A stretch of DNA of 64,000 nucleotides from Bacteroidales bacterium (lineage in GTDB: Bacteria > Bacteroidota > Bacteroidia > Bacteroidales > FEN-979), in assembly GCA_025355465.1 (NCBI GenBank), contig JANXZO010000046.1, forward strand, positions 1 through 64,000, given 5' to 3'. Numbering within the stretch: position 1 is the stretch's first letter; each line of letters opens with the position of its first letter. A program made the translations under genes and the position numbers. The notes below the pieces were generated by a model, which was not told the origin of the DNA, did not search any database, and saw only the letters and a list, made by a program, of their open reading frames with translations. Positions 5,261 to 12,312 of the stretch are shown here, piece by piece.

Positions 5261-6475
5261 ATGAAAAAGATCGCTGCCCTTACAACTCTCGGATTGCTGG
5301 TTTCCCTCGGATTATTTTCCCAGGATTTAGCCCAGTGGCGCGGACCACACCGCGATGGTATTTACGATGAAACCTCATTACTTAAAACTTGGCCAGAGGG
5401 TGGTCCGCAGCTGTTGTGGCATTTTGAAGGCCTTGGTCCGGGTCACGCTTCCGCTGCAGTTTACAAAGAGAGGATCTTTACCACAGGAACGATTGATGGG
5501 ATCGGCTACCTTTTCAATTTCGACATGGCCGGTAAACTGCTATGGAAAATACCTTACGGGGAGGAGTGGACCGAGAGCTATGCGGGAGGGCGCAGTACAC
5601 CCCTGGTTACCGATGGTAAAGTTTATCTGTTGAGCGGTTTTGGAAAACTGGTTTGCCGCAGCGCCGACAACGGCGACCTTCGGTGGACAATCGACGTGTT
5701 AAAGGATTACCAGGGGCCGAACATCAAATGGGGAGTGACGGAAAACCTGCTGATTGACGGGAACAAGCTGTTTTGTACTGTTGGCGGCCCCGAACACAAT
5801 GTTATCGCACTCGACAAGAATACCGGAAAGCTTATCTGGACCAGCAAAGGGAAGGGAGAGGAGAGTGCCTACTGCTCCCCGATGATCATCACCCTTGGAA
5901 ACCGAAAGATTTTCGTCACCCAGACGGCTAGTTCTATCCTGGGGCTGGATGCGCAGAGCGGCGCCCTTTTATGGAGTCATCCCCAGCCCAACAAATGGTC
6001 GGTACATGCCAACACCCCGGTATTTCGCGACGGATATCTCTATTGTCAGTCGGGCTATCAGCAGGGTGGGGTGATGCTTAAGGTATCGGATGATGGTGCC
6101 AGTGTGCAAGAAGTATGGCGGGCCAACTTAATGGACAACCGCATGGGCGGTTTCGTGGTGTTGAACGGCAAGCTCTTCGGTTCTGACGACTCCGGCAAAT
6201 TGTGGTATTGCGTTGACTGGAAGACCGGCACCAACATGTTTTCGGAAAAGATCACCGGCCGCGGAAGTATCATCAGCGCCGACGGGATGCTGTATCTCTA
6301 CGGCGAGAACGGTGAAATTGTGCTTGCACAGCCTGAGGCAAACAGTTTTAAAAAGGTCAGCGCATTTAAAGTATCCTACGGTGCAGATCAGCACTGGGCG
6401 CACCTTGTAGTTGTTAATGGCAAGCTTTTCGTGAGGCATGGAACTTCGCTGATGGTTTACGACCTGCAAAAATAG
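5261..6475 (+). CDS. Secreted PQQ-like beta-propeller protein 1
   Basis: A 404-residue protein with a signal peptide (MKKIAALTTLGLLVSLGLFSQ) and the family opening QWRGPHRDGIYDETSLLKTWPEGGPQLLWHFEGLGPGHAS, then repeated blades of the GxLxW / DGKVYLLSG type. The conserved AYCSPMII and CTVGGPEHNVIALDKNTGKLIWTS segments recur in the next two genes. These proteins resemble BamB/PQQ-dehydrogenase propellers, but I see no vicinal Cys pair or Ca/PQQ ligand set, so a redox enzyme role is not shown; ligand or protein binding in the periplasm is as likely. It is first of three tandem paralogues, only 37 bases before the second. Confidence 0.85.
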   Translation: MKKIAALTTLGLLVSLGLFSQDLAQWRGPHRDGIYDETSLLKTWPEGGPQLLWHFEGLGPGHASAAVYKERIFTTGTIDGIGYLFNFDMAGKLLWKIPYGEEWTESYAGGRSTPLVTDGKVYLLSGFGKLVCRSADNGDLRWTIDVLKDYQGPNIKWGVTENLLIDGNKLFCTVGGPEHNVIALDKNTGKLIWTSKGKGEESAYCSPMIITLGNRKIFVTQTASSILGLDAQSGALLWSHPQPNKWSVHANTPVFRDGYLYCQSGYQQGGVMLKVSDDGASVQEVWRANLMDNRMGGFVVLNGKLFGSDDSGKLWYCVDWKTGTNMFSEKITGRGSIISADGMLYLYGENGEIVLAQPEANSFKKVSAFKVSYGADQHWAHLVVVNGKLFVRHGTSLMVYDLQK

Positions 6476-6512
6476 CATCCCTCTTTTGAACCCGGATCCA
6501 GAAATTGTTGTT

Positions 6513-7787
6513 ATGAATTCCAACATCTTCCTTAGCTGTTTCATGGTCATGGTGGCCCTTCACCAGGTTTTACCGGCACAGCAAATTGCCCAGTGGCGTG
6601 GTCCTGATCGAAGCGGTGTATATCCGGATACCGGCTTGTTGAAATCATGGCCTGCCGGAGGTCCTGTCATGCTATGGTCGGCAACCGGAGCCGGAAAAGG
6701 GCACTCTTCGGTGGTGGTTTACGACAAGCAGGTTTATGTTACCGGGATGAAAGATTCCACAGATTATCTCTCCGCTTTTGACCTGAACGGCAAACTGCTA
6801 TGGCAGGTTCCATTCGGTCCTTCGTGGAGGAATTCCTTTCCCGATACACGCTGCACGCCAACTGTTGAAAACGATCAGATCTACCTTGTCAGCGGAAGCG
6901 GGACGGTTGGGTGTTACAGCACAAAAGACGGAAGTACGCTTTGGCAATTCGACGGGATAAAGCGGTACGACGGGAAGTTTGGTGAATGGGGGGTTTGCGA
7001 ATCGCTGCTGATCCTGGATGAGAAGTTGTTTTATACCCCGGGTGGCCCGAATACGACGGTGGTGGCCCTGGATAAGAACACAGGACAAACGATCTGGACT
7101 TCGGAAAGCCTCGCCGACACCAGCGCCTACGTCTCCCCGTTACTGGTAAGGTGGGGAAATAACCGGATTGTGGTCACCCTGCTATCAAACTATCTGGTGG
7201 GGGTGGATGCCGACAATGGAAAGATCCACTGGAAATTTAAATATTCGGCGTTATCTCCCGAAGCGGGATACAAAATATGGCCAGGAGCGCCCCAGACCAA
7301 TGCGATCACGCCGTTGTTCAGGGACGGGAACCTTTACATCACGGGTGGTTACAACCATGTTGGTGCAATGTTCAGGTTAACGGAGGATGGCACAGGGCTT
7401 CAGCAGGCATGGACCGATACTACGCTGGATTGCCATCACGGCGGGGTGGTTGAAATCGATGGCGCTATATATGGTTCAGGATGGCTGGACAATGCCCGCG
7501 GAAATTGGTGTTCGGTCGACTGGAAAACCGGTAAGCCCAATTATTCTGAAAAATGGTTTACGAAAGGATCGATAATTTCGGCAGACGGCAAGTTGTATTG
7601 TTATGAGGAGAAAAACGGAAATCTGGGCCTCGTGAAGGCTAACCCGTCTAAATTTGAGCTGATCAGTACCTTTAGAATTCCCTTGGGAAAAGGTCCGCAC
7701 TGGTCCCATCCCTCCATCTTTGGGGGAATACTTTACATACGCCATGGAGATGCCGTAATGGCTTACGATCTCCGGGAAAAGAATTAG
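6513..7787 (+). CDS. Secreted PQQ-like beta-propeller protein 2
   Basis: A 424-residue paralogue of the gene before it. The chosen start is the ATG at 6513, which opens a signal peptide (MNSNIFLSCFMVMVALHQVLPAQQ); the track start at 6486 is TTG and adds nine polar residues. The motif QWRGPDRSGVYPDTGLLKSWPAGGPVMLW follows at once. It has an extra loop relative to propeller 1 (SPEAGYKIWPGAPQTNAITP near residue 250) and keeps FYTPGGPNTTVVALDKNTGQTIWTS and SAYVSPLLV. No catalytic PQQ residues are recognised. Spacing to the third copy is 33 bases, so the three are likely co-transcribed. Confidence 0.85.
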   Translation: MNSNIFLSCFMVMVALHQVLPAQQIAQWRGPDRSGVYPDTGLLKSWPAGGPVMLWSATGAGKGHSSVVVYDKQVYVTGMKDSTDYLSAFDLNGKLLWQVPFGPSWRNSFPDTRCTPTVENDQIYLVSGSGTVGCYSTKDGSTLWQFDGIKRYDGKFGEWGVCESLLILDEKLFYTPGGPNTTVVALDKNTGQTIWTSESLADTSAYVSPLLVRWGNNRIVVTLLSNYLVGVDADNGKIHWKFKYSALSPEAGYKIWPGAPQTNAITPLFRDGNLYITGGYNHVGAMFRLTEDGTGLQQAWTDTTLDCHHGGVVEIDGAIYGSGWLDNARGNWCSVDWKTGKPNYSEKWFTKGSIISADGKLYCYEEKNGNLGLVKANPSKFELISTFRIPLGKGPHWSHPSIFGGILYIRHGDAVMAYDLREKN

Positions 7788-7820
7788 GGGACATTTTTAC
7801 CATTATCATATCCTGCAGAG

Positions 7821-9035
7821 ATGAAGAAGTTCATTTTACTTTCCGTTTTTATGATGGTCTCTGTTTCGCTTTTGGCGCAAACCATCGACCAGTGGCGCGG
7901 CCCCAAACGCGACGGCCTGTACAACGAAACCAACCTGCTGAAGCAGTGGCCTCCCGAAGGGCCGAAACTGCTCTGGAAAGCCGACAGCGTGGGTAACGGC
8001 TTTTCCTCGCCAATCATCACCGCCGAGCGGATCTACCTGCCGGGAGAGAAGGACAGCACGGGATATATCTTTGCCTTCGACCGGAGCGGAAAGTTGCTCT
8101 GGAAGGCCGACATGGGCCCCGAGTGGACCGTCAACTTTCCGGGTCCCCGCTGCACACCTGCCGTGGTTGGCGACCTGCTGTACTACCTTTCCAGCATGGG
8201 GAAGCTTCACTGCCTGGATGCCAGGACCGGTGCCACAAAATGGAGTACCGACTATATCAAAGATCTTCACGGCGTGAACCTACGTTTCGGGTACACTGAA
8301 TCGCCGCTGATTGAAGGTGACCGGATCTACTGCTCCCCGGGAGGCCCCGACACCAATGTGGTTGCCCTCAACCGGTTCGACGGCAAGCTGATCTGGAAGT
8401 CGAAGGCCATGGGTGATTCCTCCGCCTACTGCTCACCGGTACTTGTTCAGCTTCCCGGCCGCACGGTCTTTGTCAACCTGACCATTCATCATCTGATCGG
8501 GCTTGACGCGGCAACCGGTGAGCTGCTCTGGAGTTACAAAACGGAGCGCTGGCCCAACGACATCCATTGCAATGTGCCGTTGTTTGAAAACGGCAATATC
8601 TATCTCAACGACCGGGGTGGCAACGGATTTGTGAAGCTGCAGCTGGCTGCCGACGGGAAGAGCGTGACCGAGACCTGGCGCAATTTCAAGGCCGGGAATA
8701 TTCAGGGGGGCTTCATCAGGCTGGGCGATTACCTATACGGTTCACGCTACCGTCCCTCCCGTTTTGAGACGCTGTCGGCTGCCAGCGGAGAGGTTGTTGA
8801 TTCGCTTAAATTCAGCCATGGCAGTACCATTTACGCCGACGGACTGCTTTACTGTTACTCCGAGCAGGGAGCGGTGGGGCTGATCAAACCCGACAACGGC
8901 AAGTCGGAACTGATCTCCTCCTTTAAAATTACCGAAGGAACCCTGGAACATTTTGCCCACCCGGTGATCCGCGATGGCGTTTTGTACATTCGCCACGGAA
9001 AGGTTTTGCTGGCTTATGACATCCGGCGGAGATAG
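7821..9035 (+). CDS. Secreted PQQ-like beta-propeller protein 3
   Basis: The third tandem paralogue, 404 residues, with signal peptide MKKFILLSVFMMVSVSLLAQ and QWRGPKRDGLYNETNLLKQWPPEGPKLLW. It keeps the CSPGGPDTNVVALNRFDGKLIWKS and SAYCSPVLV blocks found in copies 1 and 2, and ends IRHGKVLLAYDI, as the others end with RHG...MVYDL. The arrangement points to local duplication followed by divergence, perhaps for different ligands or partners. Immediately downstream the sequence changes to AT-rich DNA with a second controller gene, which interrupts the propeller series. Confidence 0.85.
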   Translation: MKKFILLSVFMMVSVSLLAQTIDQWRGPKRDGLYNETNLLKQWPPEGPKLLWKADSVGNGFSSPIITAERIYLPGEKDSTGYIFAFDRSGKLLWKADMGPEWTVNFPGPRCTPAVVGDLLYYLSSMGKLHCLDARTGATKWSTDYIKDLHGVNLRFGYTESPLIEGDRIYCSPGGPDTNVVALNRFDGKLIWKSKAMGDSSAYCSPVLVQLPGRTVFVNLTIHHLIGLDAATGELLWSYKTERWPNDIHCNVPLFENGNIYLNDRGGNGFVKLQLAADGKSVTETWRNFKAGNIQGGFIRLGDYLYGSRYRPSRFETLSAASGEVVDSLKFSHGSTIYADGLLYCYSEQGAVGLIKPDNGKSELISSFKITEGTLEHFAHPVIRDGVLYIRHGKVLLAYDIRRR

Positions 9036-9105
9036 AAGTACCCCCAAAGAACCAATTTTACCACACATCATCAGAATGTTGATAAGAAATTAACCTTATT
9101 CAAGG

Positions 9106-9132
9106 TTGATACAACAAACTTTATTATTTTTG
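9106..9132 (+). promoter_or_regulatory. Bacteroidota-type promoter of the second controller gene
   Basis: TTG (9106-9108), 16 nt, TATTTTTG (9125-9132). The upstream decamer GTTGATACAA (9105-9114) is shared with the promoter region of the first RM operon. The spacer is shorter than usual. Confidence 0.5.
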
Positions 9133-9145
9133 ACACGATTGTCAA
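9130..9145 (+). promoter_or_regulatory. Candidate controller operator, TTGACA-N4-TGTCAA
   Basis: A perfect six-base inverted repeat with a four-base centre overlaps the -7 box and lies just before the controller gene. That is where a C protein or XRE autoregulator would bind. The binding role is inferred. Confidence 0.45.
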
Positions 9146-9160
9146 GAAATACAATTCAAG

Positions 9161-9475
9161 ATGAAAACAGAAAATTTAGGTGATTATATTAGACAGCTAC
9201 GAGAACAGGAAGAAATGCCACTACGCAAACTTGCTGCATTGCTCGATATTGACCAAAGCACACTAAGTAAATTGGAACGCGGAGCGCGACCAGTAAGCCG
9301 ACAAATGTTACCAATCATTGCAAAGACTTTTAAAGTGGACGAAAAAGAACTTGTCATAAAGTTCATGAGCAAACAAGTGGCTTATCAACTGGCAGACGAA
9401 AAATACGCTAAAGACATTTTGATTGCAGCAGAGGAAGAAATACAATACCTAACCAAAAAGAACGGTAGGAAGTAA
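9161..9475 (+). CDS. XRE-family helix-turn-helix controller (second copy)
   Basis: A 104-residue protein homologous along its whole length to the controller at 3007-3327: GDYIRQLREQEEMPLRKLAALLDID, recognition helix QSTLSKLERGAR, then FMSKQVAYQLADEKYAKDILIAAEEEIQY. The two share more than the HTH, including the C-terminal helix, so they are members of one RM-associated regulator family. The stop overlaps the next start as TAATG, the same coupling type as in the first RM operon. It probably controlled a type III RM operon that is now broken, and may still repress itself through the palindrome at 9130-9145. Confidence 0.8.
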   Translation: MKTENLGDYIRQLREQEEMPLRKLAALLDIDQSTLSKLERGARPVSRQMLPIIAKTFKVDEKELVIKFMSKQVAYQLADEKYAKDILIAAEEEIQYLTKKNGRK

Positions 9476-10839
9476 TGGAGTTACAATTAGAAAATTTAAA
9501 ATATCAGGACACCGCTATTCAGGCAGTCATTAAGGTGTTTGACGGAACAGAGAAAAACACTTTTGACAATGCTTGCACTGAGGGTATACGTTCAAATGTT
9601 TGTAAACTAATCGCTTCGCAGTTAGCCGACAATATTAAAGCTATTGCAAAAGAAAACGGCCTTGACGAAGAAACGGCAAAGTATTCAGCCGATAACGATC
9701 TCTGCATTGAAATGGAAACGGGAACAGGTAAAACACTTGTTTACATAAAAACCATTTACGAGTTATACAAACACTACGCTTTTACAAAATTCATCATACT
9801 TGTTCCGTCAATTGCAATTAGACAAGGAACTTTAGGCACTTTCAAAACATTTGAAAAGCAATTAGCTACTATTTACGGCTTTACAGTTTCGGCTTTTGAC
9901 TATGACAGCAAGAAGCTGAACAAAGTAACCAATTTCATTGAAGAACAGTATCCGCGGGTTATGATTATGACAACTGGTGCATTTTCTTCTGACGACAGAA
10001 TTTTAAACCGAACCCAAAGAGAAGATTTGTTTAATAATTTGCCATACATTGACGCAATTGCAAAAGTGCGACCAATCATTTTTATGGACGAGCCACAGGA
10101 AGGAATGGACAGCGACAATATGGTGGAACGTTTAAAAACGCTGTCAGCAGAGGAAAGAAAAGAACGTTACAGTGAAAAAGCAGGCCAATCTGTTTGGGAC
10201 TATAATAAAACAGAAGGAACAGACCATAAATTTATATTGATACAAATTCCTGAAGCTACGGACGAGAATAGTGAAGCTTATAAAGCGGGTTACAAAAAGA
10301 TCAGCGACATCACCATTGAACGAAATAAACGAGTGGTTGGAAAACTCATTGAAGAAAAGAAAAAGCAACAACCAGACCTGTTTACCAACGGACACAAAGC
10401 CGATGCAATAAATGGTTTAGGCTTTAAAGTTTTCAAATTGGTAAAATCAAATTTCCCAAGAGTTGAATGGGCTCCCGATATTGAGAAAACAGACGAAGAA
10501 AATATTGCAACCCTGAAAAAATACATTGCCGACAAAGAAGCCCAATTGGTTACAGCATTCAACCGAAACGAATTGCTGACAGAGATTTTATTAAAAAGCG
10601 GTTTTCAACTAAACTACAAGGCCGACAAACAAGACCAGTTTACAAAAAACGAAATTTTATTAGCGACAGACGGATTAAAAGAAACCTTAATTTGTTTAGA
10701 TGTAGCAATTGATGCCGACACAGTAGAGCATTTCAAAAAGCACACAGACAAAAAATTCATTTGCCTTGAACGAGCCTTGGATACTACAAAGAAATACAAC
10801 CTGAAGCACTATTTAGGTGATAAGTTTAATGTGTTTTAG
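9475..10839 (+). pseudogene. Type III restriction Res N-terminus fused in frame to Mod C-terminus (chimeric remnant)
   Basis: Residues 1 to about 215 are the start of a type III Res helicase: Walker A METGTGKT near 85 and the DEAD-box variant FMDEPQEGMD near 205. From about residue 235 the protein instead matches the C-terminal part of a type III Mod methylase: QSVWDYNKTEGTDHKFILIQIPEATDENSEAYKAGYKKISDITIERNKR, then GFKVFKLVKSNF and ILLKSGFQL. Missing are the Res helicase motifs after II and its nuclease domain, and the Mod SAM-binding and catalytic motifs. The parts are joined without a stop, which an in-frame deletion between adjacent res and mod genes would give. Neither restriction nor methylation should remain, although it could still be translated. 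Confidence 0.75.
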
Positions 10840-10884
10840 GGAATTACAATGCAATTGCAGCTGATTTCCCGTCTCCTCAAGCCC

Positions 10885-12312
10885 ATGACAAAGAAGAATA
10901 CAGAGCGAATCCTGCTGCTACTTGTGGCTGCTGTTGCTGCAGGGCTGCTGGTGTGGTGGTTTCTCTACGATCCTTCGGGGAAATTCTCCCTCTCCGTGCC
11001 GGGGATGGACCACCGTAAAAAGGGGCTTCCGGGACAGGGGGCGCCGGTAAAGATCGGGACACTCTTCACCTCCTTTAAAACGGCTGACGATCAGCCCGGA
11101 ACCAGCTGGCCGCGCTTCAGGGGAGAGGATTTTACGAACATCAGCAAAGAGCAGCTCCCGCTGATCGGTAAATTTGCACAAGGCGGACCGAAAATATTGT
11201 GGAAGAAGACGCTTGGCGAAGGGCACGCAGCGCCTGCCGTTTACAAAGGAAAGATCTACCTGCTCGATTACGACGAGGTGAAAAAGGAGGACCAGCTCCG
11301 TTGCTTTATGCTGACGACCGGGGAGGAGCTGTGGCGCCGGGGTTATAATGTAAGATTGAAGCGCAACCATGGCCTTTCGCGCACCATCCCGGCGGTAACC
11401 GAGAAGTTTGTCGTAACCATGGGTCCGCGGTGCCAGGTAATGTGCGTCGACCGTGCCACCGGAGCTTACCGCTGGGGCATTGAACTGGACCGTGAGTACA
11501 AGGCCGAAATTCCCTTCTGGTACACCGGTCAGTGCCCGATGATCGATGGCGACACGGCCATCATCGCGGTGGGAGGAACTTCGCTGATGATCGCGGTCGA
11601 CTGCAACACCGGGAAAAAAGTGTGGGAGACCCCCAATCCACGGTCCTGGAAAATGTCCCACTCGTCGGTGATGCCCATGGTGGTGAACGGCCGGAAGATG
11701 TACGTATATGCTGCCATTGGCGGAATCTGCGGCATTGCGGCGAACGGCCCTGACCGAGGCAAGGTGCTGTGGGAGAATACGGAGTTCGGTCCGAACGTGA
11801 TGGCCCCTTCGCCTGTGGTGATGCCCGACGGGCTGATCTTCGTCACGGCCGGCTATGGTGCAGGCGGAGCCCTGCTGAAGATCCGGGAAACGGGCGGGAA
11901 ATTCACGGCGGAGGTAAAACAGCGGTACAAACCCCTGGAGGGGTTGGCTTCGGAGCAGCAGACACCGGTTTATCAGGATGGTTATCTTTACGGTATCCTT
12001 CCGAAAGATGCGGGAGGGCTGCGAAACCAGTTTGTGGGCTGCAAGGCCACAGACTGCCAAACGATCGTGATGAGCAGCGGCAAAGATGAACGGTTCGGAC
12101 TCGGACCATACATCCAGGCCGACGGAAAATTTTATATCCTGAACGACGACGGAGAGATGACCATTGCAAAGGTCACCCCCGGTTCTTTCAAGGTACTCGA
12201 TAAGGCAAAGATCATCGACGGGCAGGATTCGTGGGGCCCGATCGCCATTACGGGTGGGTATTTGCTGATGCGGGATTCGAAAACGCTGGTTTGTATGGAT
12301 GTCAGACAATGA
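10885..12312 (+). CDS. Membrane-anchored PQQ-like beta-propeller protein 4
   Basis: A 475-residue protein. The ATG at 10885 (MTKKNTERILLLLVAAVAAGLLVWWFLYD) is preferred over the track start at 10849 because it opens a single N-terminal membrane anchor or uncleaved signal; the extra 12 residues may come from the junction with the inserted RM remnant. The propeller starts with SWPRFRGEDFTNISKEQ and GGPKILWKKTLGEGHAAPAVYKGKIYLLDYD and ends SKTLVCMDVRQ. It differs from copies 1-3 in lacking the QWRGP opening. It begins a series of closely spaced or overlapping genes (16 bases to the NHL gene) and probably belongs to the redox module. Confidence 0.82.
   Translation: MTKKNTERILLLLVAAVAAGLLVWWFLYDPSGKFSLSVPGMDHRKKGLPGQGAPVKIGTLFTSFKTADDQPGTSWPRFRGEDFTNISKEQLPLIGKFAQGGPKILWKKTLGEGHAAPAVYKGKIYLLDYDEVKKEDQLRCFMLTTGEELWRRGYNVRLKRNHGLSRTIPAVTEKFVVTMGPRCQVMCVDRATGAYRWGIELDREYKAEIPFWYTGQCPMIDGDTAIIAVGGTSLMIAVDCNTGKKVWETPNPRSWKMSHSSVMPMVVNGRKMYVYAAIGGICGIAANGPDRGKVLWENTEFGPNVMAPSPVVMPDGLIFVTAGYGAGGALLKIRETGGKFTAEVKQRYKPLEGLASEQQTPVYQDGYLYGILPKDAGGLRNQFVGCKATDCQTIVMSSGKDERFGLGPYIQADGKFYILNDDGEMTIAKVTPGSFKVLDKAKIIDGQDSWGPIAITGGYLLMRDSKTLVCMDVRQ

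Follow-up and report, generated by a model that had tools for sequence, protein, structure and literature searches.

A Res-Mod open frame in a Bacteroidales genome as the probable scar of one internal deletion in a type III HTH-res-mod island

The window analyzed here, a stretch of 64,000 nucleotides from a Bacteroidales contig, contains an open frame in which the beginning of a type III Res protein runs directly into the end of a type III Mod protein. We are highly confident that this feature is what one internal deletion left of a horizontally acquired type III HTH-res-mod island, and it is most likely a recent, inactive relic. What appears to be a gene fusion in reverse order would thus be a plain deletion in a res-first type III locus, and since a deletion explains the fusion, annotation of frames like this one should read relic and not fusion protein; the chimera would be an ordinary relic and no novel protein type. 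The case also shows how RM can be lost safely, namely by a deletion that takes in the 3' part of res together with the 5' part of mod and abolishes both activities at once. The chimera and its parts are as follows.

9475 to 10839, + strand: Res::Mod chimera, in frame, 454 aa (open frame and profile matches)
9475 to 10183, + strand: Res part, from the N-terminus through motif II (DEPQ), stopping before motif III (SATH) (homology to L002 and EcoP15I Res)
10181 to 10183, + strand: breakpoint, CAG common to the res and mod parents (parent comparison)
10184 to 10839, + strand: Mod part, beginning just past motif I (FxGSGTTG) and including the C-terminal domain (homology to the C-termini of relatives' Mod)

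The frame starts with ATG and holds 454 codons with zero internal stops, as the sequence-only reading had stated when it described two halves joined without a stop. PADLOC REase_III covers residues 1-252 (1.3e-45), Pfam ResIII residues 8-206 (4.5e-14), and PADLOC MTase_III residues 237-447 (1.5e-25). Both Walker A (METGTGKT) and DEPQ were found in the Res part. Residues 1-236 showed 96% amino acid identity to the Res of locus L002, and the Mod part showed 72-85% identity to the Mod C-termini of L006, L007, L010, L013 and others. These alignments assign residues 1-236 to the N-terminal portion of a type III Res and residues 237-454 to the C-terminal portion of a type III Mod. The two halves proposed earlier were therefore borne out by alignment to Res and Mod; however, the joint, which had been placed at residues 215-235, lies slightly downstream, since homology to the L002 res extends up to residue 236 and mod homology starts from 237.

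The EcoP15I Res contains RecA1 (7-269) and RecA2 (366-594), and its Mod contains the NTD (14-60), the MTase domain (62-262 and 390-516), the TRD (263-384) and the CTD (539-644) (PMC4490356). On this domain map, the Res part ends within RecA1, past motif II and short of motif III, and the Mod part begins within the MTase domain, past motif I. Specifically, chimera residues 6-213 align to about 9-234 of Res, and residues 237-288 align to 448-499 of Mod, of the EcoP15I type (type III; PDB 4zcf). Intact relatives carry the full Res and Mod of this type. In contrast, the chimera has lost motif III of RecA1, RecA2 and the nuclease from Res, with motifs Q to II remaining, and residues 1-417 of Mod, which comprise the N-terminal dimerization domain, motif IV (DPPY), the TRD and motif I; the loss of both catalytic cores had been recognized correctly. 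From the set that makes a functional type III Res (SF2 helicase motifs I-VI and a PD-(D/E)xK nuclease), the frame thus retains only what lies in residues 1-236, and DPPY, the TRD and motif I (FxGxG) of a functional type III Mod are absent because the Mod part begins past motif I.

We also searched the assembly to which the window belongs. The full Res and Mod of L013, used as queries, matched the assembly only with residues 1-238 and 418-637, which abut on contig C36. With these queries, neither the deleted res and mod segments nor a second Res or Mod of the HTH-res-mod family was found elsewhere in the assembly, so that the genome has one fused frame in place of two separate Res and Mod subunits. 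The sole other match, at G000:C10:19722-20774, is a different methyltransferase with 37% identity to the family Mod, and no Res relative to accompany it was found anywhere in the genome.

The gene order in relatives was determined in 78 distinct related loci, which came from a GTDB genome scan and represent the best 80 of 196 candidate loci. Mod lay downstream of res on the same strand in 72 of these 78 loci. Mod was absent from the other 6 of the 78 (again from the best 80 of 196), five of which are contigs that end within or just after res; in L033, also without mod, the res match stops about 1 kb short of the contig end. Res-first is therefore the rule in this type III family, its normal order being HTH-res-mod. 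This order differs from the classical EcoP1/EcoP15 order, in which mod precedes res (PMC3874151). Given that the relatives are res-first, no rearrangement or inversion of the order is needed for the chimera. Of the two origins offered by the sequence-only reading, the ancestral res-mod locus is accordingly supported (72/78 loci among the best 80 of 196), and a rearranged mod-res locus was rejected on the same count.

Intact HTH-res-mod loci, which that reading had proposed to look for in relatives, were found, e.g., L002, L003 and L013. Other genomes contain loci that are 91-96% identical in the Res part and have mod downstream of res, and G001, of the same family as the window's genome, has an intact HTH-res-mod locus (L013; 923 and 637 aa). 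In L002, L003, L004, L006 and L013, from Bacteroidota and others, the Res N-terminus is 81-96% and the Mod C-terminus 72-85% like that of the chimera, the order is as in the chimera, and an HTH gene lies upstream. Both halves are thus closest to the Res and Mod of one kind of locus with the order kept. DNA of L002 matched window positions 9040-10183 at 90% and 10243-10838 at 84%, with ~3.4 kb extra between the two matches; a single internal deletion accounts for the chimera, as the matches are collinear on either side of one breakpoint. This upholds the earlier claim of a Res-Mod chimera from a collapsed type III RM locus. Compared with the intact loci, the window locus would be an HTH-res-mod locus minus about 3.4-3.5 kb, with res codon 236 leading to mod codon ~417. 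Note that the deleted length is an estimate from relatives: none of the loci found was the exact parental allele, and for the Mod C-terminus the closest match reached only 85% (L006).

At the junction, the res parent reads AGTGAAAAAGCAG followed by ACGAC, the mod parent (L013 as an example) reads AGTGGAACAACAG followed by GACAA, and the window reads AGTGAAAAAGCAG followed by GCCAA. Short homology had been expected here, and the three bases CAG are indeed shared. An imperfect homology of 13 bases was also seen at the breakpoint, with 10/13 matching the L013 mod and 4-7/13 matching the mod of 14 other relatives; 10/13 is expected by chance at about 5e-4 per random position pair. This longer likeness is suggestive of breakpoint homology in the alignment to L013, and we claim three shared bases only, because the value of 10/13 holds for the L013 mod and falls to 4-7/13 in the 14 others, which are more distant. 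An exact microhomology this short, three bases, says little about the mechanism.

The island and its surroundings consist of the following features.

7821 to 9035, + strand: left flanking PQQ-type beta-propeller gene, host, outside the island (63.5% identical gene in G013/L098)
9040 to 9160, + strand: upstream region of the island, the HTH gene promoter region (about 90% identical DNA in L002 and L003, from 9040-9043)
9130 to 9145, + strand: operator-like palindrome TTGACA-CGAT-TGTCAA (conserved position in relatives)
9161 to 9475, + strand: XRE-type HTH gene, intact, probable operon regulator (HTH_31/HTH_3 at 2.4e-11)
10840 to 10863, + strand: right edge of the island, where the beginning of a third island gene probably survives as a remnant (likeness to L014)
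10885 to 12312, + strand: right flanking PQQ-type beta-propeller gene, host (orthologues in 10 same-family genomes)

Homology to the island spans about 9040 to about 10863, and the island's G+C is 0.367 vs 0.53-0.56 in the flanks. The right flanking gene has orthologues with 58-71% identity in 10 same-family genomes, and its start was placed at 10885 vs the program-called 10849, as the orthologues begin at or near the same methionine. The 63.5% identical homologue of the left flanking gene lies directly beside the orthologue of the right gene in G013/L098, where the gap is about 75 bases, and homologues of the two flanking genes are adjacent or closely paired in several same-family genomes. 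The best supported reading of these comparisons is that the RM island was horizontally acquired and inserted between two host PQQ-propeller genes, whose counterparts in relatives are neighbors. Four tandem PQQ-type beta-propeller genes (window 5261-9035 and 10885-12312) lie beside iron-sulfur and polyferredoxin-like genes; this cluster is conserved in the family, and the RM island is inserted into it. At the right edge, 18/22 bases agree with the beginning of the gene that follows mod in L014 (ATGCAGTTGCA), with a blastn match to 10859, and a probable remnant of this third island gene would now run into the flanking gene.

The HTH gene (104 aa) overlaps the chimeric frame by 1 base. Its product is 93-94% identical to those of L002/L003, and 91-94% identical across several relatives. 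The palindrome is located at -32 from the HTH start in the window and in 11 relatives, and at -29 in L060, and is kept even in relatives whose upstream DNA has otherwise diverged; from this conservation, it is probably the operator of the HTH protein. With RM genes downstream and a palindrome conserved in its promoter, the HTH gene has the arrangement of a C-like RM control gene.

We then counted window-only changes as nonsynonymous/synonymous (N/S), and obtained 10/15 for the res part, 5/7 for the HTH gene and 6/5 for the mod part. All three parts together gave 21/27 on the window branch, well below neutral, and for the res part, the window (10/15) and intact relatives (22/39) showed no difference (p = 0.81). 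The window branch has mostly lived as a selected gene, and since its N/S resembles that of intact loci, a recent deletion is probable. The low N/S could also stem from selection acting on the chimera. Dating by relaxed selection was therefore given up, as a res N/S equal to that of relatives yields only "recent or selected".

The sequence-only reading had taken the surviving open frame as a sign of recent formation or of a retained role, for example DNA binding. Recent formation probably holds. A deletion with random end positions keeps the frame in one case of three, so that the 454-codon frame is no argument for a retained role. The EcoP15I Mod C-terminal domain contacts Res, and a retained chimera might, under HTH control, bind DNA or hinder incoming type III RM subunits through this domain or through the Walker A/DEPQ half. 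The open frame, the intact HTH gene and palindrome upstream, and the N/S of 21/27 over the three parts are in line with this idea, which we nevertheless regard as very unlikely. Both folds are cut mid-domain (RecA1 before motif III and MTase after motif I), the Mod N-terminal dimerization part, the TRD and the Res RecA2/Pin are gone (PMC4490356), the chimera was found in no other genome (best 80 of 196 loci; about 835 genomes), and the time spent intact before the deletion explains the low N/S. A retained role is possible but unsupported, because there is no excess of amino acid changes, the recognition domain and RecA2 are gone, and no partner is present in the assembly. The broader proposal that an in-frame Res::Mod fragment under the HTH gene is kept to interfere with arriving type III RM subunits, and that in-frame collapse (window, L063 and L078) is a repeated route of domestication, appears slightly less likely still.

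An in silico join of two different RM loci or alleles has hardly any credence, even though the assembly is a draft of 75 contigs and a similar-looking fusion in L066 proved to be a 100-N scaffold gap, for which L066 was rejected as a further res::mod fusion. The window junction has no N run, the exact overlap of 3 bases is too short for a k-mer join, and the missing parts do not turn up anywhere else among the contigs, all of which argue against an assembly join; moreover, both flanks come from one syntenic host locus. That the frame belongs to a genuine, widespread Res-N/Mod-C protein family is extremely unlikely. A second in-frame res::mod fusion, L063, speaks for such a family, but its breakpoints differ, its res is interrupted by a frameshift and a stop, and it comes from a different phylum. 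Full-length homologues in several genomes were sought as the finding that would overturn the chimera, and no homologue with the same junction was found in the 78 loci (best 80 of 196 candidates), or in about 835 genomes (41 relatives, 396 genomes of the phylum and 399 of a related order). No relative came from viral contigs. On plasmids, none of the 20 best hits reached 60% identity, and they are annotated as separate genes; among these 20, the matches spanning the query were separate helicase and methyltransferase genes with about 30% identity. No stand-alone Res-N/Mod-C family thus emerged from the sampled loci and genomes. A literature search brought up no relevant paper on the fusion of res and mod or on their decay.

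For the single deletion that we favor, the course of events may be pictured as follows. An HTH-res-mod island would have been gained horizontally and placed between the two host propeller genes. Replication slippage or end joining at the 3-base (imperfectly longer) shared sequence may then have brought res codon 236 and mod codon ~417 together, the frame being kept by chance. We infer from known RM biology that the nuclease and methyltransferase were lost at once, so that the cell would never have experienced restriction without protection; the deletion would be tolerable because both vanish together. The resulting hybrid, beneath a still intact HTH regulator, is most likely a fragment without activity, too young to have gained stop codons.

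Internal deletion is a repeated route of decay of HTH-res-mod loci, as seen in the window, L063 and L078. L063:8001-11152, from a Methylococcaceae MAG, resembles the window in being an in-frame Res::Mod fusion through deletion at short shared sequence, with up to about 20 nt shared at the joint (AAGTGAAGCTTACAAA). On the other hand, its breakpoints (res about 880 and mod about 449) lie nowhere near those of the window, and a stop and a frameshift additionally disrupt its res. Because of these breakpoints, the broken res and the different phylum, the L063 fusion is an independent decay event. In L078:7998-11320, res and mod each have a separate large internal in-frame deletion, and KilA-N/Bro-like genes, named by eye, lie between them. 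The L074 mod has an in-frame deletion too. In-frame deletions seemed frequent among decayed loci, of which there were few cases.

A G+C-rich interrupted inverted repeat, GGGGTTTGCCCC...GCAAACCCC, was observed just upstream of several HTH-res-mod loci (L016:326-344, L017:7529-7547 and L029:7528-7546). This repeat could mark an island end, and seemingly only its right part is left near window position 9040.
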